Assembly: GCF_021611515.1 (NCBI RefSeq) | Contig: NZ_CP090960.1 | Location: 744,001-808,000, forward strand | Length of the DNA stretch: 64,000 nt | Source of the DNA: Mariluticola halotolerans | GTDB lineage: Bacteria > Pseudomonadota > Alphaproteobacteria > Rhizobiales > Devosiaceae | Direction: 5' to 3' | Shown here: positions 6,801 to 39,886 of the stretch, piece by piece | Numbering within the stretch: the first letter of the stretch is position 1 | Layout: every line of letters begins with the position of its first letter | Program-made: the position numbers and the translations under genes | Notes under the pieces: model-generated | What the model saw: the letters and a program-made list of their open reading frames with translations, nothing else | Told to the model about the DNA's origin: nothing | The model's database searches: none

Positions 6801-6861
6801 TGATATTCTCCACTCGGTTTGTCTGGCCATGTCGGCAGAACTTTAAAGACCACAAATATTG

Positions 6862-9474: not shown

Positions 9475-9554
9475 TACCGCCTAATGGTGCCTCAAGAGTG
9501 AAAACCCACCATCACCGCTCCGTCCGGAAGCGTCAAGACTGGCAGAAAGACAAT

Positions 9555-9598
9555 CCCGGCTTGCTGGCACCATTCATGTGAATAGCTGGCAAGCCGGG
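9555..9598 (-). terminator. Hairpin after the SPOR gene, possible terminator
   Basis: A ten-base perfect stem (CCCGGCTTGC with GCAAGCCGGG, 9555-9564 and 9589-9598) encloses a loop of 24 bases. On the minus strand it is followed only by a weak T-rich stretch. It lies in the 161-base gap between the SPOR gene and scpA, exactly where nagZ would be expected, and probably ends the argS-SPOR transcript. Confidence 0.5.
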
Positions 9599-9635
9599 CG
9601 TAATTTACGTGAACTGGCGCTGGATCAGACCAGAA

Positions 9636-11834: not shown

Positions 11835-11913
11835 AACCTGGCGCTTTCAGAACTTTCATGAATCTGGGCTTCTCCCAGTCAGCGTATTGATTGTTCATAT
11901 CAATGTGCCTTAA

Positions 11914-14985: not shown

Positions 14986-15336
14986 ATGGCTGAAACTGCA
15001 TTAGCACCAAATGATGTCATTTTGACAGAGCGCGCCGCCAAGCGGATTTCAAAAATCCTGTCCAAGGAACCAGAAGGCGCGGTTTTGCGCATTTCAGTCG
15101 CGGGTGGTGGCTGCTCCGGTTTTCAGTACGAATACAACGTCGTGCAGGAAAGCCCGGCCAATGACGATCTGGTTTTGACCAATGGCGATGCCACCGTGTT
15201 GATTGATTCCATGTCGCTGGAATTCATGGGCGGCGCCGAGATTGATTTTGTTGATGACCTGATCGGCCAGTCGTTTCAGATTACAAACCCCAACGCCGTG
15301 GCGGCTTGCGGGTGCGGGACCAGTTTTTCGGTCTGA
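14986..15336 (+). CDS. erpA: Iron-sulfur cluster insertion protein ErpA/HesB type
   Basis: A-type carrier that delivers Fe-S clusters to apoproteins, 116 residues. The three conserved cysteines are present: one in GGGCSGFQY and two in the C-terminal CGCGTSF motif. The ATG at 14986 follows a good AGAAGAGG ribosome site; the much longer in-frame reading back to 14662 runs antisense through dgt and is rejected. The erpA-dgt divergent pair is conserved in related genomes. Confidence 0.93.
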   Translation: MAETALAPNDVILTERAAKRISKILSKEPEGAVLRISVAGGGCSGFQYEYNVVQESPANDDLVLTNGDATVLIDSMSLEFMGGAEIDFVDDLIGQSFQITNPNAVAACGCGTSFSV

Positions 15337-15479
15337 CGGCAGTTTGAAACCAATCCAGCCTTGACGGTGACGGCCGACAAGTTCTGGAAAGCTGCACAAG
15401 TTCGCGTTTCCCGCTTGGCCCTTTGCCGACCTGCCGGTATTTATGACATATCCCTGACGCCAAACCACGAGACCGAGCT

Positions 15480-24539: not shown

Positions 24540-24615
24540 TCCCCGGTAGCTCAGTTGGTAGAGCAAGCGGCTGTTAACCGCTGGGTCGCTGGTTCGAGTC
24601 CGGCCCGGGGAGCCA
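24540..24615 (+). tRNA. tRNA-Asn(GTT), integration target
   Basis: A complete 76-base cloverleaf with encoded CCA. The acceptor stem TCCCCGG pairs with CCGGGGA, the anticodon stem AGCGG/CCGCT encloses CTGTTAA (anticodon GTT, 24573-24575), and the T arm has GGTTCGAGTCC. Its last 16 bases are the first part of a 30-base direct repeat that recurs at 30006-30035, so the gene is the attachment site of the following element and was rebuilt intact on integration. Confidence 0.95.
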
Positions 24616-24629
24616 AAAAGCTCCAAGAA
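24600..24629 (+). repeat. Left attachment repeat (attL)
   Basis: A 30-base sequence beginning CCGGCCCGGGGAGCC and ending GCTCCAAGAA. It covers the T-arm and acceptor end of tRNA-Asn plus 14 bases downstream, and is identical base for base to 30006-30035. The flanking bases on both sides differ (T against A at both ends), so the exact repeat is 30 bases. Confidence 0.9.
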
Positions 24630-24705
24630 TGTCAAGGAAACCAAGGGTTTCAAGGGTTTACGCTTCCTCAGAGGTACACGATTAGGTACACTTGGGGATA
24701 CACCT

Positions 24706-26079
24706 ATGCTCATGGTAATTCGTTACGTTCAAAGACGCGGGAACAGTTGGCGCTACAGGCGCAAGGTTCCTCCCTCAGCAAAATCGATGGTGGGTAAAGG
24801 CGAGATTGTCTTTCCCCTTGGGGCTTCCGAAAAAGAAGCTCTCCGAAATTATCCCCACATTCATGCGCAAGCTGAACGCATGTTGTCAGGTGCCGCGCCT
24901 ACCCGCCTCGCAGCGCAGGCCGCTACGCCGTGGGAACTGCACAAGGCAGCAATCCGAGAAGCGACACGGCTTGGCTTTAACGCTGACTGGCGCGGCTGGC
25001 AGGACGTCGACGACCTCGAGGGGATTTCCCGGGACGTCACCGCCGAGCAGGTTACGCAGCACTACCCCCGAGATGAAGAAGACAATCCCGTTGGGCTTTC
25101 TCCCAGTGACCTCGCGTTGATCAAGGTAATTCGTGGTGGCGCGGCTACACCTGAGCCTGCCCCAACCCTGCAAGACGCCATCCGGGTCTATACGTCCGAG
25201 CGTGTGGGCGATGATCATAAAAAACTGAACCAGCTGGAGCATGTTTCCAAGCTGGTGTCTGAGGTGGTCCCTCTCACAAGGCCTTTGTCTTCGTTGCGCC
25301 GTGCAGATGCCCGTGAGGTCCGCGACAACATTCTCAATGGACGCACAGTAGCTTCCACCCAGCGTTACCTTAACGTGGTGCGGGCCATCATAAATCTCGC
25401 CATCAGGGAGTTCGATCTGGCAGGGATAAATAATCCCTTCGACAAGTTGCCTGTGGGCAGATTGGACCAAGCTGAGCCGGACAAAAGCCTTCGATCTCCC
25501 TTCCCTGAGGCTGAACTCAGGCATGCACGTGCCCGTGTGATGTCTCACGCGACCATCGAACTACAACAGATTTGGCGCATTCTTGAATTCACTGGCTGCA
25601 GGCTGGCGGAAATCTCAGGCATACGCGTGGAAGACGTGGTCTTGGACCATGCTATTCCTCACATAAAGATCGTGTGGCACGACCAGCGGCGCATCAAGAC
25701 AGCGGCGTCCCATCGTTGGGTTCCCTTGATTGATGACGGACTGAAAGCTGCTCAAGAAGCAGTTCAGGCTGCAAGCTCCACAGGTCCCCTCTTCCCATCT
25801 TACTGCCGGGACGGCGGCTCAGATGCAGCGTCTGCAGCCCTAGGCAAGCATGTGAGAGCTAGCACCTCAGACCTTAAGGTCGTCACGCACTCCCTTCGTC
25901 ATCGGGTCAAAGACCTTTTGATCTTGGCAGGCGTTTCTACAGCTGAGCAGGAATTCGTGCTTGGGCATACCTCCGGCAAGGTTTCGGAAGTCTATGGCGG
26001 CAATGACGCCTTGCTTCGCGTGACCCAGAGGGCCCTTGTCAAAGCGTTTGAGCATAGGGGCGACCTCAGCAACCTCTAG
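24706..26079 (+). CDS. Tyrosine-type site-specific integrase
   Basis: Phage-family recombinase of 457 residues that should catalyse integration at the adjacent tRNA-Asn. Catalytic residues are visible: Arg299 (TGCRLAE), His395 and Arg398 (HSLRHR), His421 (LGHTSG) and Tyr430 (VYGG). The N-terminus (RRGNSWRYRRKVP) resembles the DUF6538-type arm domain and residues about 155-240 form the core-binding domain. It starts with ATG at 24706 after GGGGAT; ATG at 24712 is also possible. The gene appears intact. Confidence 0.9.
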   Translation: MLMVIRYVQRRGNSWRYRRKVPPSAKSMVGKGEIVFPLGASEKEALRNYPHIHAQAERMLSGAAPTRLAAQAATPWELHKAAIREATRLGFNADWRGWQDVDDLEGISRDVTAEQVTQHYPRDEEDNPVGLSPSDLALIKVIRGGAATPEPAPTLQDAIRVYTSERVGDDHKKLNQLEHVSKLVSEVVPLTRPLSSLRRADAREVRDNILNGRTVASTQRYLNVVRAIINLAIREFDLAGINNPFDKLPVGRLDQAEPDKSLRSPFPEAELRHARARVMSHATIELQQIWRILEFTGCRLAEISGIRVEDVVLDHAIPHIKIVWHDQRRIKTAASHRWVPLIDDGLKAAQEAVQAASSTGPLFPSYCRDGGSDAASAALGKHVRASTSDLKVVTHSLRHRVKDLLILAGVSTAEQEFVLGHTSGKVSEVYGGNDALLRVTQRALVKAFEHRGDLSNL

Positions 26080-26347
26080 GAGCTTCTCGGGAACCTCGCA
26101 GGGGTGGTTATGCGTGGCTGCGGAGCAGCGGTTGGGGTTGGGTATGTCGTTATTTGCTGGCATGGGCGGCATGTAGGCTGACCAGCCCTTACGAGATCGC
26201 CCTAGGAGTTCACGCTCCGAGGCTTCCGGCGTTAGATTGATTATTAGAACGTTCCCTATTCCATAGCTCTCTATTTGAATACGACGCCTTGGATGAATAG
26301 GCTGACCTTGCCATTAATCAGGCGGCGGACTAGCGGAGGTTATCCTT

Positions 26348-26578
26348 ATGTTCATCGAACCTCATCTCGGAACCATGGGCGTTATCACGGTAGTAGCCTT
26401 GGGTGCGGGAATGCTGGTGCAGGCTGCAAATGCTGCCTCTCTGTGGGACGGTTTTAATCTAATAGACGCCAGCACGCACACGGGCCCGTCCAACGGCAAA
26501 ATGTACGGCGTTAGAAAGCCAATGCCAAAAACTATTAGGTTGGCCCCTGTGGGTGCGATGACAGGAGAAACACTATAG
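26348..26578 (+). CDS. Small exported or membrane-anchored hypothetical protein
   Basis: A 76-residue open frame with a strong ribosome site (GGAGGT ending seven bases before the ATG). The N-terminal 30 residues form a hydrophobic stretch (MGVITVVALGAGMLVQAANA) that reads as a signal peptide or anchor, followed by a short polar region rich in Gly/Pro/Lys. No family is recognised. It lies in the element between the integrase and the small lipoprotein. The good ribosome site is the main argument that it is a real gene. Confidence 0.5.
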   Translation: MFIEPHLGTMGVITVVALGAGMLVQAANAASLWDGFNLIDASTHTGPSNGKMYGVRKPMPKTIRLAPVGAMTGETL

Positions 26579-26639
26579 CGTCGCCCTGAGACCTTATAGG
26601 CCGAGCGGCGCCGAACTTTTATGGCGCTTAAGGTGGACC

Positions 26640-26906
26640 TCAGACGCAATCGAAGGCGGCCCTATATCCCCGAGTGCTTTTGTAGGTGGCTGTCTTTCCA
26701 TACTGACCGCAGAACCGCTCGGCCACTGGAAACGCATCCATCTCATTCCACACGTTACCGATCATAACCCCGTTCTTATTGCCCACCACATTCTGCCCGA
26801 ACGGGCTTCCATAGACATTGGCATTCTTTGGATCAGATGAGGTCGAGCAGCCGGCTAGAATTATGCAGAGCATTGGGGCGGCGGTTAGAAGCTTTACGCA
26901 GTGCAT
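26640..26906 (-). CDS. Small lipoprotein
   Basis: An 88-residue lipoprotein with lipobox LAGC (Cys20) after a hydrophobic leader, and a strong AAGGAG ribosome site five bases before the ATG at 26906. The mature part contains an AERFCGQYGKTA stretch and ends FDCV, a layout (Cys-x2-Tyr-Gly-Lys and terminal Phe-x-Cys) shared by many small lipoproteins of alphaproteobacterial islands and phages; a disulfide between the two cysteines is likely. Function is unknown. It is transcribed opposite to the rest of the element. Confidence 0.75.
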   Translation of the reverse strand: MHCVKLLTAAPMLCIILAGCSTSSDPKNANVYGSPFGQNVVGNKNGVMIGNVWNEMDAFPVAERFCGQYGKTATYKSTRGYRAAFDCV

Positions 26907-28301
26907 AGGGTCTCCTTAGGGTCAGCGCTATTCTGGCGAAAAAATCCAATCTGCCAAGATCAAAAACCACGAACACAAGTTTCCCCCGTATCCCCTCGCC
27001 GTCAGCGGTCATAAGCCGAGGTCACTCAGCTTGCTGCAAACGCTTGTGGTCAGGACGTGGCAGCGTTTTTCGGGAAGCAACATGCCCAGTCCTTCGGGAG
27101 CATTGATAATCTCACCATCCATGCTCCTGCATGTGCCTCCAGTTTTATACCGACATCAACCATGGTCGCGATGCCGCGTGGCGGTACCCGTCCGGTTCGC
27201 ACCGACCGTGTGTACTCTCGCTGTTTGCACGTTTTCACCGAACGGTTGAGTGCCGAGTGCGGCAACGCCGAAATCTCCGCCAGCCCCTGTTATTCAAATT
27301 TTATGAGGCTGGACGCCTGATCGTGCAGAAGGCATGCGCCGCAGCATAACCAGGTGATTACCCCCCACAATAGGAGGTGCCCCCCCGGTTCATATATAGG
27401 TTTGCCCTAGGCAGCTCGCGAAATGGCATGAGAGGTTATACACTCATGCTCCATTCTATCTCCAACAAATGGCTCCACCCATCGTGGAGGCTGCTCCCAC
27501 CACACTGACCCAAGAAGCTGGCCATGGAGAAACGTTCATTTCCCGAATTGAACCTTGGTCTGCCCCTCGAATAACGGTGATGAGGCGGGGCAACAGCGCC
27601 CTGCTCTATACCCCTACCAATCACGGAAAACCTCGGAGACCTGTTACCCAGCATAAGTGATGCGGAAAGCTACCTTTACATACAACGATTGTTGGGTCGA
27701 TGTTGAGCCGAATATAACGGCTTGTGTCCTTCTAAGAGGATAGTTTGCCAAGGCCCCATCTCATCGAGGGTCCGAGTATATATGCTACAAAAATCCGAAC
27801 CGCCAAGATCGAAAACAACGACCGCGAGTTCCCCCGCCCGCCCCTCGATGCCCAGCAAACAGCTGTCGAACATTTCATTCTCCAGCAAACCCACAGGACA
27901 CAGACATTGTCAGCCAATCAAAGCCTTACCTGCAGCGGAACAACGCCGCTCAACTGAACCACCTCAAAAGCATTGAAAGTCTATCCGAACTCTTGAAGGC
28001 AACACCCCTGCTATCAGGGCTAGGCATGAGGCTGCAGTTGCATCAATTTGACCGTAGCCAAGAACCATAGCATCGCTCAGGGTGACCTTCGTGGCGCTTG
28101 TCAGCAAGCTGTGGGATGCCAATTAGGACCAGCCTGCCTATGGCAGTTCCCTGAGTGGGCGCTGCTAGAAATCGACTAGATAGGACGCATGCGCTCTAGT
28201 GTTGTTCGATAGCTTCAAACCGCAGCATCGCGAGCATCTCCAGAGAAGCACTAATTTACACCATGCAGTCGCTTCCATGTATTTTACACCCACAACGACC
28301 G
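26907..28301. other. 1.4-kb low-coding stretch inside the element
   Basis: Apart from one weak candidate frame at 27676-27873, no open frame here combines good length, ribosome site and plausible composition. The segment contains a diverged direct repeat (about 26939-27000 and 27788-27850) and several short C/T-rich runs such as the one near 27360. It probably represents remnants of lost element genes, though a non-coding RNA cannot be excluded. Confidence 0.5.
27676..27873 (-). CDS. Possible small protein of unknown function
   Basis: A 65-residue frame starting at an ATG preceded by GGAG at six bases. It contains a short hydrophobic segment (ELAVVVFDLGG) and no recognisable family. A diverged copy of the DNA coding for that segment occurs at about 26939-27000, where a one-base length change destroys the frame. 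It may be a real small gene or the fragment of a larger one. Confidence 0.25.
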   Translation of the reverse strand: MFDSCLLGIEGRAGELAVVVFDLGGSDFCSIYTRTLDEMGPWQTILLEGHKPLYSAQHRPNNRCM

Positions 28302-28329
28302 TTGACATTAGATAATTGCTAAATATGCT
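28302..28329 (+). promoter_or_regulatory. Sigma-70 type promoter of the serine recombinase gene
   Basis: TTGACA (28302-28307) is followed after 16 bases by TATGCT (28324-28329), a near-consensus housekeeping promoter 23 bases upstream of the recombinase ATG. A short inverted pair TTAG/CTAA sits between the two hexamers and could serve as an operator. Confidence 0.6.
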
Positions 28330-28352
28330 GAAACCCACATTGGGAGTTCGCC

Positions 28353-29012
28353 ATGAAACAATATGTCATCTACACGCGTGTAAGCACCGAAGCACAGAAC
28401 AACAGCGGCTTGGGTCTGGAGGCTCAAGAGCGAGATATCGACATTTTTCTGAACAACTTCTCTGAGGTACCATATGAGGTCATCGGACGGTTTCAGGACG
28501 TGTTCTCGGGTGGCGCGAATGACCGCCCGCAATTGGTCCTTGCTCTCAAGCTGGCGCGCTCTTCTGGAGCCGAACTGTTGGTGGCGAAGCTGGACAGGTT
28601 GAGCCGTAAAGTGTCGTTTATTGCAGCACTGATGGACGATGCAGCCGTAAAGCTCCGGGTGGCATCGATGCCCTCTGCAGACAAGTTTCAACTTCACATC
28701 TATGCAGCTCTAGCAGAGCAGGAAAGGACGTTTATTTCAGAGCGGACGAAGGCGGCATTGAAGGAAGCGAAGGCTCGTGGGAAAAAGCTCGGCGGACTGC
28801 GTGATAAGACAATGAAGCGCAATGCCGCAATACAAGCCAAGGCGAAAGCAGAGGCGGAACGGGTGGTCAAGATTGCGGGGCCCCTGCGACAGTCTGGAGC
28901 TACTTTGGCCAGCATCGCGAAGACACTCAATGAGACTGGCATCCCCACATCACGCGGCGGCGCATGGACACCCACACAGGTCTCTCGGGTACTCCAACGG
29001 ACCGGGGCATAA
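28353..29012 (+). CDS. Serine recombinase (resolvase/invertase family)
   Basis: Site-specific DNA recombinase of 219 residues. The N-terminal catalytic domain has the nucleophile Ser11 in IYTRVSTEAQ, an AKLDRLSRK segment with conserved arginines and an EQERTFISERTKAAL helix; the C-terminus holds a helix-turn-helix (ASIAKTLNETGIPTSRGGAWTP). It follows GGGAG and a good promoter. In a tRNA element already carrying a tyrosine integrase, it might resolve multimers, invert a segment, or be the remnant of a second element. No inverted recombination sites were recognised beside it. Confidence 0.88.
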   Translation: MKQYVIYTRVSTEAQNNSGLGLEAQERDIDIFLNNFSEVPYEVIGRFQDVFSGGANDRPQLVLALKLARSSGAELLVAKLDRLSRKVSFIAALMDDAAVKLRVASMPSADKFQLHIYAALAEQERTFISERTKAALKEAKARGKKLGGLRDKTMKRNAAIQAKAKAEAERVVKIAGPLRQSGATLASIAKTLNETGIPTSRGGAWTPTQVSRVLQRTGA

Positions 29013-29141
29013 TGTCTAACCGCCTATCCGTGGCGGGACGTCTATTGTTTTTGTGAATAATGTTCCGGCTATTCAAGTCAAACATAGACTTAGGCGAATA
29101 TTTTTGCTCTGCTCATGATGCATGCTTTTGAGGGGGTTATT

Positions 29142-29417
29142 GTGCAACTGTTTTTTGGCATTGGCTATTTTGTGATTGGCGCGGTGCAACTATTCGCTGT
29201 TGCCGATGGGATTGGGAAACTTCTTCATTTTAATAACTTTTTCAGCTTCTTCTTCGCCTTCATGGTAACCTACATACCGCTTCTCGGTTCTGCGTTAGGT
29301 GTATACGGCGCTACGACAGTATGGGATTGGGATATCTGGCAAGCTGTAGCTCTGTTTTTCTGGTATATACCGGTAGCTTTATTGCTCACGCTAATCGGCA
29401 CCATCTTTGATCGTTGA
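29142..29417 (+). CDS. Small three-helix membrane protein
   Basis: A 91-residue hydrophobic protein with three predicted membrane helices (around QLFFGIGYFVIGAVQLFAV, FFSFFFAFMVTYIPLLGSA and AVALFFWYIPVALLLTLIG). The GTG at 29142 follows GAGGGGG at five bases and is preferred to the upstream ATG pair at 29115, which has no ribosome site. It overlaps the next gene by one base (TGATG), so the two are translationally coupled. The DNA is distinctly more AT-rich than the chromosome around the element. Function unknown. Confidence 0.6.
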   Translation: MQLFFGIGYFVIGAVQLFAVADGIGKLLHFNNFFSFFFAFMVTYIPLLGSALGVYGATTVWDWDIWQAVALFFWYIPVALLLTLIGTIFDR

Positions 29418-29797
29418 TGATGAGCACTCCGGCGACAGAAGGTTGGTTTTCCCTTTCAATACGGCGAAATCGGAAAAGTTATATAATCGCCACAACGATG
29501 TTGACCGCCATCTTCCTGACGGTTCTTGGTGTTCTATGGATATTGAATGTGCAGGGCCGACCGGCAGTCATTATAATTTTTCTGTTCTTTGTCCCTTACT
29601 TCATTTGCGGATATACTCTCACGTCACAGCGGTTGCGTGATATGGGTTTGACTGGCTGGCTGGCATTGCTCTGGATACCGGTTGCCGTCTCCGACAGATA
29701 CATTGGAGGAGCTGCTTGGGCAGCTTTCGCTATCGTCCTTTGTGTTGTACCGGGAACGGCGGGAGACAATAGATATGGTCCCGACCCTCTGGCTTGA
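29417..29797 (+). CDS. DUF805 family membrane protein
   Basis: A 126-residue membrane protein with the DUF805 pattern: an N-terminal hydrophilic start (WFSLSIRRNRKSYI), helices, the diagnostic SQRLRDMGLTGW loop and the C-terminal PGTAGDNRYGPDPL. DUF805 proteins are widespread and of unknown function, often carried by phages and islands. ATG codons at 29417 and 29420 are both possible; the first overlaps the stop of the preceding gene. It is the last gene of the element, 208 bases before the right attachment repeat. Confidence 0.8.
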   Translation: MMSTPATEGWFSLSIRRNRKSYIIATTMLTAIFLTVLGVLWILNVQGRPAVIIIFLFFVPYFICGYTLTSQRLRDMGLTGWLALLWIPVAVSDRYIGGAAWAAFAIVLCVVPGTAGDNRYGPDPLA

Positions 29798-30005
29798 TGT
29801 ACGGTTCCGCTTCAAAGACCGACCGTCAAGGTTGGCGCAATAGATGCCAACTTCCCCCCGCCCAGCTCTATTGACTTTGAGGTACACCAAAGCTACCCGT
29901 TGGGGTACACCGCATAGCGGTTCTCTTTGATGAAGCGTTACAATAACCCATTGCTCGGCATGGTTTTTTAAGTTCTCCGGCATTCTCTTGGGCATTCCAG
30001 ACACA

Positions 30006-30035
30006 CCGGCCCGGGGAGCCAAAAAGCTCCAAGAA
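30006..30035 (+). repeat. Right attachment repeat (attR)
   Basis: The exact copy of 24600-24629, preserving the tRNA 3' terminus including CCA but with no cloverleaf in front. It marks the far end of the element; conserved-looking chromosomal metabolism genes begin 369 bases later. Confidence 0.9.
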
Positions 30036-30404
30036 ATATTCGCAACGTCATGCGTTGCAGGGTTTGAGATCCCCCCACAGACACACAGCATGTGCGTTGG
30101 GGGAGAGCTTTATATCGTCTGCTTCATCCGGTTTGCAGATGCCCCCCAGATGGCACAGCACGGGCAGATCCGTCGCCTGATGTGAAATGTCAGGCAATGC
30201 CATCAGGTGTGCGTTTCTTACTGGCCCTGCCTCCCCGGCCCGCCGCTGACGCCTTGAGCCTCGCTGTCAGCATTCTCTTTTACAGTGCTTCAAGGGGCCG
30301 GGTCACGACATATAGCTTCAGGCTATAGGTTGGTGAAAATAACAAAGCTTGTTTATGGGACTGGCGCTTGCGAGAAGCTTCCCGAGTTAATCAGGAGGCT
30401 TCGG
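30036..30404. other. Intergenic region between attR and the catabolic operon
   Basis: No gene is apparent. The region contains an inverted repeat CCTGATG/CATCAGG (30176-30182, 30201-30207) and, nearer the operon, the 17-base palindrome at 30311-30327. A strong AGGAGG ribosome site precedes the aldehyde dehydrogenase ATG. The operon promoter and its control sites presumably lie here. Confidence 0.5.
30311..30327. promoter_or_regulatory. Candidate LysR-type operator
   Basis: A perfect palindrome TATAGC-5 bases-GCTATA, containing the T-N11-A form typical of LysR-regulator boxes. It lies 77 bases upstream of the aldehyde dehydrogenase start, at the head of the operon that encodes its own LysR protein (37948-38883). 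Confidence 0.5.
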
Positions 30405-31844
30405 ATGAACAGCGCAGACGTATTCATAGATGGCAAATGGGTTCGCCCATCAAGTGGGGCCACGCTGGACACGGTTGCACCCTCGACTGGCAAAAAGATT
30501 GGCACGATTGCCCGCGGCACAGCACAGGACATTGATCTTGCCGTGCAGGCCGCCCGCCGGGCCTTCGAGGGACCTTGGGGGCAAATGGCAGCGGTCGATC
30601 GTGGCCGGCTTCTGTCCAGGCTGGGGCAAAAAATTCTGGAGCATGAAGACGAGCTGACAGCGCTCGAGGCTCTCGACACAGGCAAGGCGCTCAAACTGGC
30701 GCGCAATGACGTCAAGGCCGCGGCCCGCTATTTTGAGTTCTATGGTGGTGCTGCCGACAAGCTGCACGGCGAAACAATACCCTTCCTCTCCGGCTATCAG
30801 GTCATGATTCTCAGGGAACCCCGAGGGGTCACCGGGCACATCATTCCCTGGAACTATCCTGCACAGATGTTCGGCCGCACGCTTGGCCCGGCACTCGCTG
30901 CTGGCAATGCCGCCGTTCTCAAGCCTGCCGAAGAGGCCTGCCTATCCTGCATCAGGTTGACTGAACTGGCTGCCGAAATCGGCTTTCCTGATGGTACAAT
31001 CAATCTGGTGCCGGGGTTGGGCGAGGAAGCTGGCGCTGCCTTGAGTTCACATGACGGGATTGACCTCATCTCCTTCACCGGTTCGCCGGAAGTGGGCGTT
31101 CTGATCCAGAAATCGGCGGCGGAAAACCACGTTCCCTGCGTTCTGGAACTGGGTGGCAAGTCGCCGCAGATTGTATTCGCCGATGCGGATCATACCAAAG
31201 CGATTGAAACAATCGTTGCAGCACTGGTGCAGAACACGGGCCAGACTTGTTCCGCTGGCAGCCGGGTTTTGATCGAACGGTCGATCTATGACGACTTCAT
31301 GGTCCAGTTGACACGACGCTTCAAGCAATTGCGCACAGGCGCCCATGATCTCGATCTCGATTGTGGCCCCGTCATCTCCAAAGTGCAGCAGGAACGTGTT
31401 CTCGGCTTTCTTGAACGTGCCGAAAAAGACGGCGTGCAAATTGCGGCGCAAGGGACAGTCGATCCCTCCTCGTCTGCTGACGGATATTTTGTGCCCCCGA
31501 CACTTTATCGAATGGTGCCCCGGGACCATGAGCTGGCGCTAGAAGAGGTCTTTGGACCGGTGCTCGCGGCCATTCCGTTCGATGATGAAGCCGATGCCAT
31601 CCGCTTGGCGAACGGCACCGATTACGGGCTGATCGCGGGTGTATGGACCGATTCTGGCGCCCGCCAGATGCGTCTGGCAAAGGCCATCCGGGCCGGCCAG
31701 GTCTACGTCAACGGCTATGGTGCCGGTGGCGGAATCGAGCTGCCGTTTGGCGGCTTCAAGAAAAGTGGCCATGGGCGCGAAAAGGGTTTTGAAGCTCTTC
31801 GCGAGTTCACGGTCGCCAAAACAGTGGTTTTCAACCACGGATAA
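30405..31844 (+). CDS. NAD(P)-dependent aldehyde dehydrogenase
   Basis: Oxidises an aldehyde to its acid, 479 residues. Catalytic Cys282 (GQTCSAGS), general base Glu248 (LELGGKS) and the oxyanion Asn150 (IIPWNYP) are present. The ATG at 30405 follows AGGAGG at six bases. It heads a nine-gene same-strand cluster with a TRAP transporter, an alcohol dehydrogenase, a CoA transferase and a lyase. The substrate is unknown; the context suggests it forms the carboxylic acid that is then activated to its CoA ester. Confidence 0.9.
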   Translation: MNSADVFIDGKWVRPSSGATLDTVAPSTGKKIGTIARGTAQDIDLAVQAARRAFEGPWGQMAAVDRGRLLSRLGQKILEHEDELTALEALDTGKALKLARNDVKAAARYFEFYGGAADKLHGETIPFLSGYQVMILREPRGVTGHIIPWNYPAQMFGRTLGPALAAGNAAVLKPAEEACLSCIRLTELAAEIGFPDGTINLVPGLGEEAGAALSSHDGIDLISFTGSPEVGVLIQKSAAENHVPCVLELGGKSPQIVFADADHTKAIETIVAALVQNTGQTCSAGSRVLIERSIYDDFMVQLTRRFKQLRTGAHDLDLDCGPVISKVQQERVLGFLERAEKDGVQIAAQGTVDPSSSADGYFVPPTLYRMVPRDHELALEEVFGPVLAAIPFDDEADAIRLANGTDYGLIAGVWTDSGARQMRLAKAIRAGQVYVNGYGAGGGIELPFGGFKKSGHGREKGFEALREFTVAKTVVFNHG

Positions 31845-31877
31845 CCGCAACTCAAAACTATTCTCTGGGAGGAGAAC

Positions 31878-32888
31878 ATGAACGCATTACGAACAGCTGC
31901 CTCACTGACAGCAATCTGTGCAATGTTGGCAGCTCAGCCTGCTCTCGCACAGGACATGCGTGCCCGTCTGGCACACGTATTCGCAACAAACAGCCCTGTG
32001 GACCAGGCCAGCCAGGCGTTTGCACAATGCGTGACCGATGGCACCGATGGTGCCATGGACGTCACAGTGTTTCCCAACAGCCAGTTGGGTAGTGACGAAT
32101 CCATTGGCCGTGACCTGTCACGCGGCGGTATTGAATTTGCATTCCTCAATCCTGGCTCGCTGACCGGGCTCGACCCGCTGCTGGACATTCACTACCTGCC
32201 TTACATTGTGAGCAGCAATGACGAAGCGGACGCCGTCTTTTACAATCCCGATGGCATTCTCCAAACCACGATCCGCGAGACTTTGGACAAGCATGGCATG
32301 AAGGCACTCGATTTCTTCGAGCTTGAATTCCGTGCGGTGACGAACTCCGAGCGGGCCGTTGAAAGCCTGGCCGACATGAAGGATTTGCGGTTGCGCGTAC
32401 CGGGTTCTGTGGCCATTCGCAGCTTCTTTGAGCAAGCCGGTACCCAGGCTGTGACCCTGCCCTTCCCCGAACTGTTTGTGGCCTTGCAGCAGGGCACCGT
32501 CGACGGTCAGGATAATGGTGCCAGCATCACCTATAATTCCCGGTTGTTTGAAGCCCAGAAATACATGACGCGGACCAACCACGTCTACGCAATGGGCACG
32601 ATCACAGTTGGCAATGAATTCTGGGAAGGCCTTTCCGAAGACCGGCAGACCCTTATTGCAGATTGTGCGCATGAGGCCGCATCCAATCAGATCGCCGACA
32701 ATCGGGCGCAACAGGCAGAGTTTATCCAGAACATCAAAGATGGTGGCGTGGAAGTGACTGAACTGTCAGCCGACGCGATGGCTGAATTTGTCGAACTCGG
32801 GCGTTCACTCTGGACACAGCTCGAAGACGCCTACGGTGCTGATCGCATCGCTGCCCTTCGGGCTGAGGTCGGAGCCGATGGTAAATAA
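31878..32888 (+). CDS. dctP: TRAP transporter solute-binding protein, DctP type
   Basis: Periplasmic binding protein of a tripartite ATP-independent transporter, 336 residues. It has a signal peptide (ending PALAQ) and a DctP core including the segment LRVPGSVAIRSFFEQAGTQAV, whose arginine normally pairs with a substrate carboxylate, then LFVALQQGTVDGQDN. A GGGAGGAG ribosome site precedes the ATG. It overlaps the small permease gene by 11 bases. The ligand is probably an organic acid. Confidence 0.9.
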   Translation: MNALRTAASLTAICAMLAAQPALAQDMRARLAHVFATNSPVDQASQAFAQCVTDGTDGAMDVTVFPNSQLGSDESIGRDLSRGGIEFAFLNPGSLTGLDPLLDIHYLPYIVSSNDEADAVFYNPDGILQTTIRETLDKHGMKALDFFELEFRAVTNSERAVESLADMKDLRLRVPGSVAIRSFFEQAGTQAVTLPFPELFVALQQGTVDGQDNGASITYNSRLFEAQKYMTRTNHVYAMGTITVGNEFWEGLSEDRQTLIADCAHEAASNQIADNRAQQAEFIQNIKDGGVEVTELSADAMAEFVELGRSLWTQLEDAYGADRIAALRAEVGADGK

Positions 32889-33420
32889 TACCACAAAACA
32901 AGCAGCGCCATACCCGGCGCTGCTTCGTTTGCTCGATGGCATAGAGGGCACTCTTGCCGTTATCGAGAAACGTGTCGCCGCCATATCCATGTTCGTCATA
33001 CTGATTGGCATCAGCATCACGATCCTGACCCGGGTGATCAATCTCCCGATTCCCAGCATGGGCGAAATTGCGATTGTGGCAATGGCACCGCTGGCCTTCA
33101 TTGGCGGGGCATTTTGCAGCTACATGCATCGGCACATCACCATAGATGCTGTGGACGCATTCGGCCCTCCCCGCGTCCGGCGGGCGATCCGGATTTTGGC
33201 CGCCCTGTCGATGATGGTATTTGCAGGCACCTATTGCTGGCTGACCCTTTCCTTTTTTCAATATGTCTGGTCATCCGGCGAACGGCTGATTGATCTGGGC
33301 ACGCCCGTCTGGATTCCGGTTGGGTGCATCGTTCTAGGCGCGTTTCTCATGATGCTGCATGCCTCACTGGACGTCCTGCGCATGGTACTGGGGCTTCCCA
33401 GAACAGGAGGGATGGAATGA
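32878..33420 (+). CDS. dctQ: TRAP transporter small permease, DctQ type
   Basis: Four-helix membrane subunit of the TRAP transporter, 180 residues. It has hydrophobic segments beginning AISMFVILIGISITILTR and the DctQ-family FIGGAFCSYMHRHITIDAV region. The ATG at 32878 follows GGAG inside the end of dctP. Its stop overlaps the start of the large permease (ATGA), so the three subunits are translationally coupled. Confidence 0.88.
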   Translation: MVNNTTKQAAPYPALLRLLDGIEGTLAVIEKRVAAISMFVILIGISITILTRVINLPIPSMGEIAIVAMAPLAFIGGAFCSYMHRHITIDAVDAFGPPRVRRAIRILAALSMMVFAGTYCWLTLSFFQYVWSSGERLIDLGTPVWIPVGCIVLGAFLMMLHASLDVLRMVLGLPRTGGME

Positions 33421-34691
33421 TTATCACCGTCGTCCTGCTTTTGGCGTTTCTGGTGATTGGCACGCCGATCGCCGCCGCTTTTGCGCTCAGCGTTTTCCTC
33501 AATGCCGATGAACTCAATGTCTGGCTGGATTCGATTGCCAGCCTTCCCTATGACGGCATTTCGAGCTTTGCGCTGCTCGCTATTCCCCTTTTCATCCTCG
33601 TGGGTGAAATCATGAACCGCGGCGGCCTGGCCGCGTCGCTTGCATCCATGGCAGACAGCGCCATCGGCCGCATTCGTGGTGCCTTTGGATATGTCATGAT
33701 CCTCGCCAGCGGCTTTCTTGGCGCCATTACCGGCTCGTCGGTCGCGACAGTGGCGGCGATCGGTGCCGCGCTGGGGCCTGAGATGATCGCGCGCGGTTAT
33801 CCGCGGGGCTATGTCGCTTCACTCAACGCTGCCTCTGGTCTTTTGGGCGTATTGATACCGCCCAGCATTCCTCTCATCATTTATGGCTCAACCGTTGGCG
33901 TATCGATTACCCAGTTGTTCATCGCCACCATTGTGCCCGGTTGTGTCATGGGCTTGTCGCTCGCCGCGGTTCATTTTGTTCGCTCGCGCCACTTGCTGCC
34001 TGACGGGCGGGAACGCCAGATTGACACCTCCGATATCGATAGTGTCGGCAAGCGCTCAAAAGGCCGCGCCATTGCTGCATTGTTCATGCCCGTGCTGGTT
34101 CTTGGGGGCATATATGGCGGGATATTCACCCCGACAGAAGCTGCGGCTGCCGCCTGCGTATATGGCATTGCAGTGGTTTTGCTTCAAAAAAGCCTGAAGC
34201 CCTCAGGCGTGGCGCGGACATTTTACATCGCCATCATGCCGGCTGCTGCCATTTTGCTGATCATTTCCATGACAGGCATTCTCAACCGTGCGTTGATCCT
34301 CAATCAGGTTCCTCAGGATCTGGCGGTTTATATGACCAACCTGTTTGCCGACCCGTTGCTGTTCCTGCTGGCAATCAATCTGTTGCTGTTGGCTGTGGGC
34401 ATGTTCATGGAGACCAATGCAGCCGTGCTGTTGATGGGGCCGCTGCTGGCACCTTCGGCCATGGCGTTCGGGATCGATCCGGTCCATTTCGCCATTATCG
34501 TGGTGACCAATATTGAGATTGGCCTGATGACACCGCCATTGGCCGCCAATCTTTATGTGGCTGCACGCACCAACGACGTCCACCTGCTCGAAATGTTGCG
34601 GCATTTCGGTTGGTTCCTGGGCGCCGCTGTGATTGCGCTGGGGCTGATCACCTACATTCCCTCACTCTCTCTTTGGTACCGCTTTCTCTAA
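33417..34691 (+). CDS. dctM: TRAP transporter large permease, DctM type
   Basis: Multi-pass membrane subunit that carries the sodium-driven transport step, 424 residues. Family features are the N-terminal IGTPIAAAFALS, the GSSVATVAAIG segment, LIPPSIPLIIYG and the C-terminal EIGLMTPPLAANLYVA. The ATG at 33417 overlaps the dctQ stop by four bases; a longer frame back to 33324 lies inside dctQ and is rejected. Confidence 0.92.
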   Translation: MIITVVLLLAFLVIGTPIAAAFALSVFLNADELNVWLDSIASLPYDGISSFALLAIPLFILVGEIMNRGGLAASLASMADSAIGRIRGAFGYVMILASGFLGAITGSSVATVAAIGAALGPEMIARGYPRGYVASLNAASGLLGVLIPPSIPLIIYGSTVGVSITQLFIATIVPGCVMGLSLAAVHFVRSRHLLPDGRERQIDTSDIDSVGKRSKGRAIAALFMPVLVLGGIYGGIFTPTEAAAAACVYGIAVVLLQKSLKPSGVARTFYIAIMPAAAILLIISMTGILNRALILNQVPQDLAVYMTNLFADPLLFLLAINLLLLAVGMFMETNAAVLLMGPLLAPSAMAFGIDPVHFAIIVVTNIEIGLMTPPLAANLYVAARTNDVHLLEMLRHFGWFLGAAVIALGLITYIPSLSLWYRFL

Positions 34692-34706
34692 AAGGCCCGT
34701 ATTCCC

Positions 34707-35819
34707 ATGACCAATATCCCCAAATTTTCCAAAGCAGCAGTTTTGCGCGAATTCGGCCAGCCCCTTCAAATTGAAGATGTGCCGGTGCCTGAGAAACTGG
34801 AAGCTGGCTCTTTGCTTGTCAAAACCAGCGCCTGTTCGGTTTGTGGCACCGACGTGCACCTGTCCGGCGGCAATCTGGCGCTCAAGGTGGATCTGCCCGT
34901 CATTATCGGTCACGAAATGACCGGGCGGGTTGTGGCCATGGGCGACAACAGCTCCAAGGACAGTATTGGCCAGGACCTGAAGATCGGCGACCGCATCTTG
35001 TGGACGCACACGTCCTGCGGCTCGTGTTTCTATTGCACGGTGGCAAAGCAACCGACGCTGTGTGAAAACCGGCGCGCCTATATGTACGAGACGATGGCAC
35101 GCTATCCCTATCTGTTGGGTGGCTTCTCGGAATATGGCTATGTTCTGCCGCAGTCCGGGCGGATCAAAGTGCCCGACAATGTCGCTGATGACCTAGCAAG
35201 CCTGTGCTCTTGCGCATTCCGCTCGGTCATGAACGCCATGAACAATCTGGGCGAGATCGAGGCGCACGAACATATCGTCATTCAGGGCGTGGGGCCGCTT
35301 GGCCTGCTCGCAACAGCTGTTGCACGTGCACGCGGTGCCCGTAGCGTTATTGCCATCGGTTCGCCCCAGGCACGACTTGATCTGGCTGGCGAACTTGGGG
35401 CTGATCATACGATTTCAATTGAGAATGCCAGCCATGAAGAGCGGCTTGAAACCATTCGCAGCCTGACAGACGGGCGCGGCGCGGACATTGTCATGGAATT
35501 CACCGGACATCCCCCGGCGTTTGGGGAAGGGCTTGATATCGTCAGAAAGGGTGGCCGGTACGTCGTTGTTGGCCAGCTGGGCGACAAGGAAACCACCCTC
35601 AAACCCTCCACCATTGTGAAAAACAATATCCGGGTTATCGGCTCCTTCTCGGGCGATGCGCGCAGCTATTGGCAGGCACTGGAGTTTGCGGCACAGCATC
35701 AGGCCCAAATTCCGCTGCACAAGATTTTGACGGGCCGTTACCGGCTTGACGATGTGAATACCGCTTTGGACCGCATGCGCCGGTACGAAGAGGTAAAGCC
35801 CGTCATTGAATTCTCATAA
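34707..35819 (+). CDS. Zinc-dependent alcohol dehydrogenase, threonine dehydrogenase-like
   Basis: Medium-chain dehydrogenase of 370 residues. Catalytic zinc ligands appear as Cys in CSVCGTDVH and the histidine-glutamate pair GHEM, the structural zinc site as four cysteines in CGSCFYCTVAKQPTLC, and the Rossmann motif as GVGPLGLLA. It starts 16 bases after dctM. Together with the aldehyde dehydrogenase it could convert an alcohol or polyol to an acid in two steps. The exact substrate cannot be read from the sequence. Confidence 0.9.
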   Translation: MTNIPKFSKAAVLREFGQPLQIEDVPVPEKLEAGSLLVKTSACSVCGTDVHLSGGNLALKVDLPVIIGHEMTGRVVAMGDNSSKDSIGQDLKIGDRILWTHTSCGSCFYCTVAKQPTLCENRRAYMYETMARYPYLLGGFSEYGYVLPQSGRIKVPDNVADDLASLCSCAFRSVMNAMNNLGEIEAHEHIVIQGVGPLGLLATAVARARGARSVIAIGSPQARLDLAGELGADHTISIENASHEERLETIRSLTDGRGADIVMEFTGHPPAFGEGLDIVRKGGRYVVVGQLGDKETTLKPSTIVKNNIRVIGSFSGDARSYWQALEFAAQHQAQIPLHKILTGRYRLDDVNTALDRMRRYEEVKPVIEFS

Positions 35820-35832
35820 CGAGGGTCGTTTC

Positions 35833-37029
35833 ATGCAATCTTTTGATCCCAATGCCCTCGGTCCCCTGGACAAAGTCCGGGTTATCGACATGTCCCGCCT
35901 TGTCGCCGGCAATATGACGACGCATGTGCTTGCAGATTATGGTGCCGACGTCATCAAGATTGAACGTCCCGGCAAAGGTGACGATCTGCGCAACTGGCGC
36001 TGCAAAGACCAGGAAATCTACTGGAAGGTTTACGCGCGGAACAAAAGAAGTTTTGCGTGTGACATCAAGACCGAAGAAGGACGTGAGGACCTGGTTGACC
36101 TGTTGACCACTGCTGACGTGCTGGTGGAAAACTTTGTGCCGGGAACGCTGGAAAAATGGAATCTGGGGCCGGAGGACTTGCACCGGATCAATCCCAAGCT
36201 GGTTATCCTGCGCATATCGGGCTGGGGGCAAACCGGCCCCTATCGCAACCGTCCGGGTTTTGGCACGCTGGTCGAGGCCATGTCGGGCTGGGCGCATCTG
36301 AACGGACATGCCGACAAGCCACCCACCCTGCCCCCATTGGCCATGGCAGATATGGTCGCCGGCCTCTATGGTGTCGGTGCCGTGCTTACCGCTTTACGGG
36401 CGGTCGAGATGGGTGGCGGCAAAGGCCAGGTTATCGACTTGTCATTGTTTGAGCCGATCCTTTCGATCATCGCCTCGGAAGCAGCCCAGGTTCAGCTCAC
36501 AGGCGAGCCGACGATGCGTGCCGGCAACCAGTCTTCGCATACCTCACCGCGAAATGTGTATTTGTGTGCCGACGGCAAATATGTCGCGCTTTCCGGCTCG
36601 ATGCAGTCCATGGCCATGCGTATTATGGACACGATCGGCCAGCCACAGCTTAAAACCGACCCGCGGTTCGCAACCAATGATGAACGTGTCAAAAACCGGG
36701 ATGAACTTGATGCAATTATTGCTGAGTTCATCAGCCGGCGCTCCCAAGCGGAAAATTTGACCCTGTTTGAAGAGGCAGGCGTGACGGTTGGGCCTGTGTG
36801 CTCAATGGGCGATCTTATCGACCATCCTTATGTTCGCGAGCGCGAAGTTCTGGTCGATCTGCCTGATGAAGGCATGGGCAGTGTTCCCATGCACAATATT
36901 GTGCCGCGCATGTCGCTGACGCCCGGCCAGTTCCGCCGCCCCGCGCCGCAACTGGGCGAGCACAATGCCGAAATTGGTGAAGAACTCAAACGTTACAGGT
37001 CCGAAAAGAAGGTATCTACTCATGCCTGA
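35833..37029 (+). CDS. Class III CoA transferase (CaiB/BaiF family)
   Basis: Moves CoA from a donor thioester to a carboxylic acid, 398 residues. The family start VRVIDMSRLVAGNMTTHVLADYGADVIKIE is followed by the catalytic aspartate in MADMVAGLYGV and a FEPILSIIAS segment. The ATG at 35833 is preferred to a TTG at 35806 that lies inside the dehydrogenase gene. It overlaps the following CitE-like lyase gene by eight bases, which argues that the CoA ester it makes is the lyase substrate. Confidence 0.9.
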   Translation: MQSFDPNALGPLDKVRVIDMSRLVAGNMTTHVLADYGADVIKIERPGKGDDLRNWRCKDQEIYWKVYARNKRSFACDIKTEEGREDLVDLLTTADVLVENFVPGTLEKWNLGPEDLHRINPKLVILRISGWGQTGPYRNRPGFGTLVEAMSGWAHLNGHADKPPTLPPLAMADMVAGLYGVGAVLTALRAVEMGGGKGQVIDLSLFEPILSIIASEAAQVQLTGEPTMRAGNQSSHTSPRNVYLCADGKYVALSGSMQSMAMRIMDTIGQPQLKTDPRFATNDERVKNRDELDAIIAEFISRRSQAENLTLFEEAGVTVGPVCSMGDLIDHPYVREREVLVDLPDEGMGSVPMHNIVPRMSLTPGQFRRPAPQLGEHNAEIGEELKRYRSEKKVSTHA

Positions 37030-37903
37030 CCGCAATCTGCCGAACTGGCGCTCCATTCTTTTTGTTCCGGTACTCAATGAGAAATTCGTTGCCGGCGCGC
37101 CGAACCGGGATGCGGACTGCATTCAGCTGGACCTTGAGGATGCCATTCCGCCCGATCAGAAGCAGCAGGCCCGCGACCATGTAGCGGACGTCGCCGACCG
37201 TCTGGCGGATGCCGGGTGCGATGTCATTGTGCGTATCAATCGCCCGTGGTGCATGGCGATGGCCGACATGCAGGCATGCGTGCGCCCATCAGTGCTTGCC
37301 CTGACGCTGCCAAAGGTTCCCGGCCCCGGCCATGTGCGCGCGATTGCCGAGACCCTTGACGAAATTGAACAAAATATGGGGCTTGAAAACGGCCATACCC
37401 GGCTGATTGCCATGGTGGAGACGGCCGAGGCGCTTTCGCAAATGGAACAGATCGCCCGCGCCAGCGACAGGGTCATCGGATTGATTGTCGGCGCGGAAGA
37501 TCTAGCGGTGTCGATGGGCATGAAGCCGACACACCAATCGCTTCTGCTGCCAAATCTTCAGGCAGTTGCAGCGGCCAGAGCTGCAGGTTGTATGCCGCTC
37601 GGCTTTGTTGGATCTGTGGCGGATTATTCAGATATGGCCGCTTATGGCGACCTGATCAGCGAAGCCCGGTCACTGGGTTTCACCGGTGCATTTGCCATTC
37701 ATCCCAGCCAGGTGCCGGTGCTCAACAAGCAGTTTGCCCCCTCGCAGGAAGAGGTCGATGCAGCGCGCGCCTTGATAGCCAGTTTTGAGCAAGGCATAAA
37801 AGAGGGACGCGGGGCGATAAGCCATAATGGCAAAATGGTTGATTTGCCCGTTGTCGAACAAGCGCAGGCAATCCTTTCCGCTCACGAGCAGTTTGCCTCT
37901 TGA
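37022..37903 (+). CDS. HpcH/HpaI aldolase / citrate lyase beta-like (CitE-like) protein
   Basis: TIM-barrel lyase of 293 residues, related to malyl-CoA, citramalyl-CoA and citryl-CoA lyases. The N-terminal SILFVPVLNEKF, the metal and substrate segments DLEDAIPPDQK, VRINRPW, METAEAL and GAEDLAVSMG are present. Known relatives split a beta-hydroxyacyl-CoA into acetyl-CoA (or propionyl-CoA) and a 2-oxoacid. Coupled translation with the CoA transferase supports that role here. Substrate specificity remains open. Confidence 0.85.
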   Translation: MPDRNLPNWRSILFVPVLNEKFVAGAPNRDADCIQLDLEDAIPPDQKQQARDHVADVADRLADAGCDVIVRINRPWCMAMADMQACVRPSVLALTLPKVPGPGHVRAIAETLDEIEQNMGLENGHTRLIAMVETAEALSQMEQIARASDRVIGLIVGAEDLAVSMGMKPTHQSLLLPNLQAVAAARAAGCMPLGFVGSVADYSDMAAYGDLISEARSLGFTGAFAIHPSQVPVLNKQFAPSQEEVDAARALIASFEQGIKEGRGAISHNGKMVDLPVVEQAQAILSAHEQFAS

Positions 37904-37947
37904 GAACCGTGAAGTCCGCACGCGCCTAAAAACGATAGGAAACCGAC

Positions 37948-38883
37948 TTGGACCTCAAGGACCTGCGCTGTGTCGCGATGATCGCCGAGACCGGCTCATT
38001 CGTCGCGGCAGCGGAACGGCTGAACATGTCGCAACCATCGGTGAGCGCCCGCATTCGCCGACTGGAGGCGGATCTGGGGACGGAATTATTCGCGCGCAGC
38101 GCCCGCGGCGTATCACCAACCGCGCAGGGCGAGGAATTGTTGCGCCACGCCCGCTCCATCCTGCGGCAAATGCAGGACGCCGAAGCCGATATGCTGGCGT
38201 TCAATGCGTCACCAGTCGGTCTGGTGCGTGTGGGGCTTCCGACCTCGCTGACGGCAGGGTTGACCAGTCCACTACTGGAATTGTGCATGGCGGAAATTCC
38301 CAATGTTAAGTTGCGGATCGTTGAGAGCATGTCCGGTTATATCGAGCAATGGCTTCAGGATGGCACGCTCGACCTCGGGATCACGTTCGGTTCCCGGCCG
38401 CCCTCCGACATTGTGATTGAGCCGTTGGCGCGCGAGGATTTGCTGCTTGTCGGCAAGGATCAGGCCGCCATGGCCCCGCATCTCGACACCAATGGCAATG
38501 TGCCTTTTGTCAGCCTGGCAAATGTGCCCCTGATCCTGCCCGCCCCCGAACACGGCCTTAGAATTCTGGTGGAGGATGTGGCACGCCAGCAGGCCGTACG
38601 CCTTGGCGTGGTTGTTGAAATTGATGCATTCGGCGAAATCCAGCGGCTGGTGGCCCGCGGGCTTGGCTACACGGTCATGTCGTCGGCAGCCTTTCAGTAT
38701 GGCTATCGTCCCGACCTTGCGGCGGCGCTGATCTTGCGGCCTTCGGTATCGCGGGTGGTCAACCTCACAACAGGTGCCGGACGCACGCCGTCGCGCGCTG
38801 TCAGTGAGGTGGCGCAGCGCCTCAAAAGCGTGGTGCAAATGCGCGTGAAAGAAGATGGCTGGCTGGCGCACCCGATTATCTGA
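37948..38883 (+). CDS. LysR family transcriptional regulator
   Basis: Regulator of 311 residues with the N-terminal winged helix (LKDLRCVAMIAETGSFVAAAERLNMSQPSVSARI, read in pieces) and a periplasmic-binding-like effector domain. The start is TTG at 37948, preceded by AGGA at seven bases; no ATG lies nearby. Unusually for the family it is embedded in the same direction within the cluster it probably controls, rather than diverging from it. Its likely target is the palindrome at 30311-30327. Confidence 0.88.
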   Translation: MDLKDLRCVAMIAETGSFVAAAERLNMSQPSVSARIRRLEADLGTELFARSARGVSPTAQGEELLRHARSILRQMQDAEADMLAFNASPVGLVRVGLPTSLTAGLTSPLLELCMAEIPNVKLRIVESMSGYIEQWLQDGTLDLGITFGSRPPSDIVIEPLAREDLLLVGKDQAAMAPHLDTNGNVPFVSLANVPLILPAPEHGLRILVEDVARQQAVRLGVVVEIDAFGEIQRLVARGLGYTVMSSAAFQYGYRPDLAAALILRPSVSRVVNLTTGAGRTPSRAVSEVAQRLKSVVQMRVKEDGWLAHPII

Positions 38884-38908
38884 AAACACATATCTGACAG
38901 GGGACAGG

Positions 38909-39886
38909 ATGGCTGTTCGTGACGACGTCCACATCGTGATGCTTGACCAGGGCACTTTTCCGCCGGAAGCGGATTTGTCGGGACCCAAGGCCCCGCACCG
39001 CATCACCTTTTATAACCGCACTGCGCCCGAGCAGGTGGCCGAACGCATCGCGGATGCGGATATCGTCATCACCAACAAGGTTCCCATCACGCGTGAGAGC
39101 CTGCAATCGGCCCCAAACCTGAAGCTGATTGCTGTCGCCGCGACGGGCTATGATGTCATCGATGTTGAGGCATGTGCGGCACAAAATGTTCTGGTCTGCA
39201 ATGTGCGCGACTATGCCTATAACACGGTGCCCGAGCATACATTTGCGTTGATCCTGGCATTGCGGCGCAGCGTCATGGCCTATCATAAATCTGTTGCTGC
39301 GGGGCGTTGGCAGGAGAGCGGACAGTTCTGCTATTTCGATTTCCCGATCAATGACCTATCGGGCTCCACCATTGGCATTATTGGCGACGGCACCATTGGC
39401 AAGGCGGTGGGAAATATCGCGCAGGCATTCGGCATGAATGTGTTGCGGGCCGCCCGGCGCGGCGCGCCCCCCAAAAGCGATCGCTATCTGCCTTTTGAAG
39501 AGGTGCTGGCGGCGTCGGATATCATCACATTGCATGTGCCGTTGGGGCCGGAGACGCGGGGGTTGATTGATGCGGATGCGTTTGGGTTGATGGCGCGGCG
39601 GCCGCTTATCATCAATACCGGGCGCGGTGGGCTTGTGGATGAAGATGCTCTTTGCAAGGCATTGATTTCAGGGCAGATTTCCGGTGCGGGATTTGATGTG
39701 ACGGCGGTTGAACCTATCGTTGACGGGCACCCGTTTTTCGACCTGATGGATCGAGACGACTTTATTTTGACGCCGCATGTGGCGTGGGCCAGCCGGGAGG
39801 CAACGCAGGTTGTTGCCGATCAAGTGTTTGGAAACATTGATGCATTTTTGAGCGGCAAGCCTCAAAACATAATATCTGTAAAATGA
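38909..39886 (+). CDS. D-2-hydroxyacid dehydrogenase (hydroxypyruvate/glyoxylate reductase-like)
   Basis: NAD(P)-dependent 2-hydroxyacid dehydrogenase of 325 residues. It has the nucleotide-binding motif GIIGDGTIGKAVG, the catalytic arginine in NTGRGGLVDE, a glutamate in the following loop and the catalytic histidine in TPHVAWAS. The ATG at 38909 follows AGG within GGGGACAGG. As last gene of the cluster it could reduce the 2-oxoacid (for example glyoxylate or pyruvate) released by the CitE-like lyase. Confidence 0.88.
   Translation: MAVRDDVHIVMLDQGTFPPEADLSGPKAPHRITFYNRTAPEQVAERIADADIVITNKVPITRESLQSAPNLKLIAVAATGYDVIDVEACAAQNVLVCNVRDYAYNTVPEHTFALILALRRSVMAYHKSVAAGRWQESGQFCYFDFPINDLSGSTIGIIGDGTIGKAVGNIAQAFGMNVLRAARRGAPPKSDRYLPFEEVLAASDIITLHVPLGPETRGLIDADAFGLMARRPLIINTGRGGLVDEDALCKALISGQISGAGFDVTAVEPIVDGHPFFDLMDRDDFILTPHVAWASREATQVVADQVFGNIDAFLSGKPQNIISVK

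Follow-up and report, generated by a model that had tools for sequence, protein, structure and literature searches.

In the 64,000-nucleotide window of Mariluticola halotolerans analysed here (contig NZ_CP090960.1, positions 744,001 to 808,000), 5.4 kb of DNA behind a tRNA-Asn gene is bracketed by exact 30-base repeats. The best reading, which the sequence comparisons support, is that of a real, compact and reduced integrative element. As an island this element is ordinary in kind; its interest is the recurring pairing of two unrelated recombinases, a tyrosine integrase with a DUF6538 N-terminus and a small serine recombinase. We consider it fairly probable that the element is one of several related tRNA elements in Alphaproteobacteria and has the life cycle proposed below. 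Such a group bears on how small islands that lack transfer genes spread.

The direct repeat consists of the last 16 bases of the tRNA-Asn 3' end and 14 bases beyond. At up to three mismatches it has two copies in the whole genome (3.45 Mb in two contigs; the host is related to Devosia and Pelagibacterium), while the reversed control pattern has none. By base-counting arithmetic, an exact pair of 30-mers is expected by chance in 7 kb with a probability of the order of 1e-11. As DNA, the whole element was found only in its own genome among 61 genomes (its own and 60 of the family and order), and partial matches in two others, of 485 and 183 bp, both lie inside the recombinase gene. The sets searched include no second genome of this genus, and the uninterrupted tRNA-Asn junction was not found in them.

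The exact repeats and the integrase inside the left end (Phage_integrase PF00589, 1e-8; DUF6538, 1.9e-6), both reported in the original prediction, were thus recovered, as was its statement that recognisable replication, transfer and capsid genes are missing: scans of the element proteins against Pfam (9 proteins), NCBIfam, PHROGs and PADLOC (7 each) matched no replication, relaxase or conjugation, capsid, portal or terminase family, relaxase and conjugation genes having been sought by family scans only (Pfam, NCBIfam). None of seven proteins matched a known defence gene in PADLOC, and neither AlpA nor satellite replication genes were matched in Pfam, NCBIfam or PHROGs. Our analysis adds four genes that the prediction lacked, coding for the serine recombinase, a lipoprotein and two small membrane proteins (Table 1). 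The start of the phrog_3075 gene is the GTG picked by comparison with Pelagibacterium lentulum, the listing of open reading frames giving 29115; the DUF805 protein also has a weak PHROG match in the moron class (3e-4).

Table 1. Features of the tRNA-Asn element (positions in the window).
Feature	Position	Strand	Evidence and remarks
tRNA-Asn (GTT)	24540..24615	+	ARAGORN; integration target, left whole
Left attachment repeat, 30 bases, exact	24600..24629		Repeat search
Tyrosine integrase, DUF6538 N-terminus, 457 aa	24706..26079	+	Open frame, beginning 91 bp past the tRNA
Stretch without a frame longer than chance	26080..28282		Holds the lipoprotein gene, shown by homology
Small lipoprotein, 88 aa	26640..26906	-	Lipobox LAGC by eye; P. 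lentulum homologue
Promoter-like repeat before lipoprotein gene	26939..26961	-	By eye TTGGCA, 17-bp spacer, AGAATA
Second promoter-like repeat copy	27788..27810	-	Repeat search; no convincing gene behind
Conserved imperfect inverted repeat, candidate crossover (res) site	28283..28314	+	Overlaps TTGACA box
Small serine recombinase, 219 aa	28353..29012	+	Pfam, Resolvase PF00239 (3.5e-25)
Small membrane protein, phrog_3075	29142..29417	+	PHROGs; P. lentulum homologue
DUF805 membrane protein	29414..29797	+	Pfam; overlaps phrog_3075 gene by 4 bases as listed
Right attachment repeat, 30 bases, exact	30006..30035		Repeat search

The nearest relative was found in P. lentulum B2 361 (loci L081 and L084), a genome outside the 61-genome DNA search. 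There the same tRNA-Asn is occupied by an element with its own 18-base repeat, the copies being 18,070 bp apart. Among 136 family genomes, six including the own one had integrase matches at 1e-20, two of them besides the own one with near end-to-end alignments (51% in P. lentulum and 43%), and the phrog_3075 protein was found in two, the own one and P. lentulum. Pairwise identities to P. lentulum are 50% for the integrase (451 aa), 77% over 75 aa for the lipoprotein, and 58% for both the phrog_3075 (91 aa) and the DUF805 (125 aa) proteins, which lie beside the right repeat; the DNA of the right end is 85% identical over 40 bp. In the shared genes synonymous sites are saturated (pS 0.74-0.98), pN is 0.11-0.36 and there are no internal stops, which argues for constraint at the protein level since the split. 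The two elements share the tRNA, the integrase type, the lipoprotein, the promoter-like repeat and a serine recombinase before two right-end membrane genes. The promoter-like repeat precedes the lipoprotein gene in both and has two copies per element at 0-1 mismatch, the pattern being built from those same copies. The P. lentulum element differs in being about 12.7 kb longer, with genes for SNase, DUF6161, a Bro-N antirepressor, a trypsin-like protease and an ion channel, and in having a different kind of serine recombinase, with HTH_7. The two kinds occupy the same place, directly before the phrog_3075 gene. Judged from these sequences, the M. halotolerans element appears to belong to the P. 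lentulum element lineage and to have shrunk and partly decayed. The P. lentulum element (L081) also holds a regulator gene (15044-15403) with a 70% similar DNA copy 2.7 kb off, at approximately 12377-12691, where no matching open frame of at least 60 aa is listed.

The 2.27 kb between the integrase and recombinase genes has a longest frame of 109 codons, compared with a median of 129 in shuffled sequence, and a six-frame search of 26080-28352 against PHROGs gave two weak matches only, to families of unknown function (E 0.013 and 0.049). Since no frame exceeds chance and one promoter-like copy has no convincing gene behind it, reduction is likely, and the stretch outside the lipoprotein gene is probably decayed. 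This bears on the first half of the earlier alternative, "either very reduced or dependent on a helper"; for the second half, helper dependence remains our inference. Outside 26492-26920, no tested piece of 26080-28529 reached 3 standard deviations above the null in comparison with the P. lentulum element, and no lipoprotein homologue was found in viral contigs. The second promoter-like copy is a possible scar of a lost cargo gene. Two other candidates in this stretch were rejected: 59-base repeats at 26940 and 27789 were dropped as cassette borders because on the minus strand they look like promoters and precede the lipoprotein gene in both species, and 26083-26211, considered as what is left of a small gene known from P. 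lentulum, scored 135, below a shuffled null of about 187.

A search with an alignment of three integrases yielded 20 loci, 19 in genome contigs and one in a viral contig, two of them (L084 and L092) being members of the query alignment itself. In 15 of the 20 loci a tRNA gene (Asn, Leu, Phe or Thr) lies 82-138 bp before the related integrase; the remaining five have no tRNA, and their integrase matches are partial or broken. Eight elements could be delimited by repeats of at least 14 bases at both ends and range from 2.6 to 18.1 kb: those of M. halotolerans (5.4 kb), P. lentulum (18.1 kb), Defluviimonas (7.5 kb), Fuscibacter (7.5 kb), Bartonella apihabitans (7.2 kb), Mesorhizobium kowhaii (2.6 kb) and two further Mesorhizobium elements (14.0 and 13.3 kb). 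The genomes of L085 and L098 have a single repeat copy only; L094 was left out of this second-repeat search. As a single protein the integrase had no match in phage records, viral contigs or genome contigs, the alignment retrieving one partial locus from viral contigs, and its matches in six plasmid records all cover less than 80%. In our searches of the open PubMed Central (PMC) subset we recognised no treatment of this integrase group, and the name DUF6538 brought up no paper.

A serine recombinase is present in seven of the eight delimited elements, and at least two kinds occur; in the element of M. kowhaii, where the integrase is cut short, none was found. The recombinases of the two larger Mesorhizobium elements share 71% identity with the M. 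halotolerans kind, and that of Fuscibacter shares 65% with the P. lentulum kind. At E 1e-10, PF00239 has 118 matches in 61 related genomes of the family and order (about 213 Mb), which corresponds to 0.04 expected in the 73 kb of the seven elements, a rough figure, as genome sizes were rounded and some elements come from other orders. At the same threshold the recombinase of the element is the sole PF00239 match in its own genome. The fact that the recombinase differs in kind and is yet seldom missing in the group suggests that the life cycle passes through multimers.

In all 12 loci examined whose recombinase has at least about 65% identity, the own locus among them, a shared block of ~32 bp lies upstream of the gene; its centre in the commonest form reads CAACG-NN-CGTTG. 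The block is single in each locus at up to two mismatches, with one further match at three mismatches in both L060 and L095; in L081 and L090, which have another kind of recombinase, it was not found. In the M. halotolerans genome it is likewise single at up to two mismatches and has four other matches at three, the reversed control pattern also giving four. L050, L087 and L095 have a complete second half-site, which the M. halotolerans block lacks. With one site per genome, multimer resolution fits better than inversion, so the block suggests, by analogy with SGI1, a role in the former. GTCTC/GAGAC words occur within 200 bp upstream of the recombinase gene five times in Defluviimonas and four times in Bartonella, with ~0.4 expected; the words were picked after inspection.

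Several observations weigh against reading these loci as a group of small elements paired with a resolvase. Five loci (L086, L089, L091, L092 and L096) have no second repeat within ~11.5 kb or before the contig end, so the size range leans to small elements; as one of the five (L089) has a terminase-like gene, the group may also include larger phages. For L087 and L095, the two larger Mesorhizobium elements, the search for the ends came only once the contents had been seen, and without both the tally of recombinases is five of six; over the integrase loci it is 11 of 16 within the stretch examined. The upstream block was unseen in five of seven loci with recombinases ~50-62% identical (L065, L066, L068, L071 and L072, L066 having little upstream DNA), and L067 and L070 show, by eye, part of it only. 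Its symmetry is marginal (0.427; 95% point 0.391 and maximum 0.453 in 500 column shuffles), and since it overlaps a TTGACA box it may be a mere promoter or operator. Nor is the pairing exclusive, as close recombinase homologues also occur in prophages, for example before the terminase gene of L059, and in the island L051, where no related integrase was found.

These last homologues favour another possibility, namely that the serine recombinase has no part in the life cycle of the element and is either a passenger in its own right or a DNA invertase. Its best PHROGs family is named DNA invertase, and among solved structures the closest chains bear the name DNA-invertase (E 4e-10), followed by the Tn3 and gamma-delta resolvases. 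Its presence in seven of the eight delimited elements and the occupation of the same place by different kinds in M. halotolerans and P. lentulum speak against this, and no inverted partner was found, the own genome having no second site at up to two mismatches; we consider such a passenger or invertase somewhat unlikely. A mobilizable element, conjugated via an oriT that a helper relaxase recognises, would fit the tRNA-island anatomy together with the resolvase, and the resolvase-bearing island SGI1 is mobilized by IncA/IncC plasmids (PMC12217951). As the Pfam and NCBIfam scans matched no relaxase family, we regard this explanation as very improbable.

The element could also be a decayed prophage, which kept both temperate-phage ends, had its middle deleted and lost mobility. 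The loss of coding capacity in the middle agrees with this, as do several matches elsewhere in the group: relatives of the Bro-N antirepressor in 6 of 16 loci by clustering, that of P. lentulum among them; an internal virion protein (phrog_342, 7e-120) in a 14.0-kb Mesorhizobium element; a terminase large subunit (8e-23) in one of 44 proteins of other loci, the best candidate being L089 17419-18462 of Rhodobacter capsulatus, which phmmer matches to the terminase of L059 at E 3e-6; and weak matches to a terminase small subunit in L050 (E 0.0029) and to a virion structural protein in the L093 repeat protein (E 0.0019). Homologues of the phrog_3075 protein are found in Uetakevirus phages, near an antirepressor in one of the two shown. 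On the other hand, the eight delimited elements measure only 2.6-18.1 kb, capsid, portal and terminase had no match among 10 P. lentulum element proteins and, beyond the weak L093 virion match, among 10 proteins of L088, L090 and L093, and the integrase, lipoprotein and membrane genes are open and constrained. On this evidence a decayed prophage appears unlikely.

Under the compact-element reading, anatomy indicates that the DUF6538 tyrosine integrase would insert the circular, excised form at the 3' end of the tRNA and could excise it again. The serine recombinase would act at the single site upstream of its own gene and resolve dimers or multimers of the excised form into monomers, a role that we infer from the presence of one site per genome and from the SGI1 precedent. 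The lipoprotein and the two membrane proteins could be cargo acting at the envelope, possibly excluding phages, which is a guess. As no replication, conjugation or capsid gene was found, the element would move by hitching on another element or is now stranded; a phage as the most likely carrier, and transfer by a helper phage in general, are likewise guesses. Its small size would result from deletions in a relative of the 18-kb P. lentulum element in the same tRNA. A wider and quite doubtful generalization is that minimal tRNA elements of Alphaproteobacteria keep two recombinases: a tyrosine integrase by which they enter and leave the chromosome, and a serine resolvase, exchangeable between elements, which before integration reduces multimers made by replication or phage packaging to single circles; the 5.4-kb element would then be among the smallest and near the minimal set.

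Tycheposons and VEIMEs are chromosomal islands of marine bacteria that are thought to be virion-borne and have a tRNA site and a tyrosine recombinase; a tRNA site and a tyrosine recombinase are also seen in the present element. Both names appear in PMC11389934 and PMC10803314. SGI1 offers a tested precedent (PMC12217951): this integrated island encodes a serine resolvase that acts at a res site, and once its Tn3-like resolution system is restored, multimers of the island are cleared. SGI1 differs in its plasmid mobilization, no mobilization gene having been found in the present element. The intY genomic islands behind tmRNA, which are transduced by a jumbo phage, also lack transfer genes, have short direct repeats and carry their tyrosine integrase next to the RNA gene that they follow, but are 23-55 kb long and carry AlpA and defence genes, neither of which was found here (PMC12595487). 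The PICMI satellites are similarly small (PICMI115 has 6,110 bp), with a reduced gene content and no capsid genes, and their packaging is in the form of concatemers, in principle a substrate for a resolvase; they differ in being inserted beside fis instead of in tRNA-Asn and in having AlpA and core proteins of excision and replication, and the word 'resolvase' occurs 0 times in that paper (PMC10803314).

The original prediction also held that the element splits a conserved chromosome from a catabolic operon. This could be followed in part: of 29 loci, compared over 1.5 kb of flank each and some of them centred on tRNA-Cys, 14 have a mobA homologue. The right flank was not found beside the tRNA at any of these loci; its aldehyde dehydrogenase and TRAP gene were found in 0 of 29. 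The operon with these genes (30285-39886) may be a separate acquisition.

Some observations concern single genes of the other loci. No match was found for L089 19310-20950 by phmmer or among solved structures; L094 8191-10032 matches acyl-CoA ligases and L096 18798-20108 a CadC-like/TPR protein. The terminase-like gene of L089 lies ~6 kb beyond a tRNA-Asn integrase, perhaps in a full prophage of the group. The 14.0-kb tRNA-Leu element of Mesorhizobium sp. SOD10 (L106) encodes on the reverse strand (8179-11946) a 1255-aa protein. A scan of 1158 aa of it gave a match to an internal virion protein of phages that has an endolysin domain; a gene that looks ATPase-like by eye adjoins it. In L059 (IMG/VR 2728369612, 5107-7628), a 74% relative of the recombinase is followed by a small gene and then by a terminase large-subunit gene, and L060-L062 have genes of matching size at that position. 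At tRNA-Phe of Devosia psychrophila (L050/L092), a 69% relative of the recombinase occurs together with an RNase H gene, the weak terminase small-subunit match and a pair of tyrosine integrases. Behind a tRNA-Asn integrase of Tabrizicola oligotrophica, L091 13207-14955 encodes a 583-aa protein with a stretch resembling a DarT-like ADP-ribosyltransferase, which matches a solved DarT chain at 1e-29.

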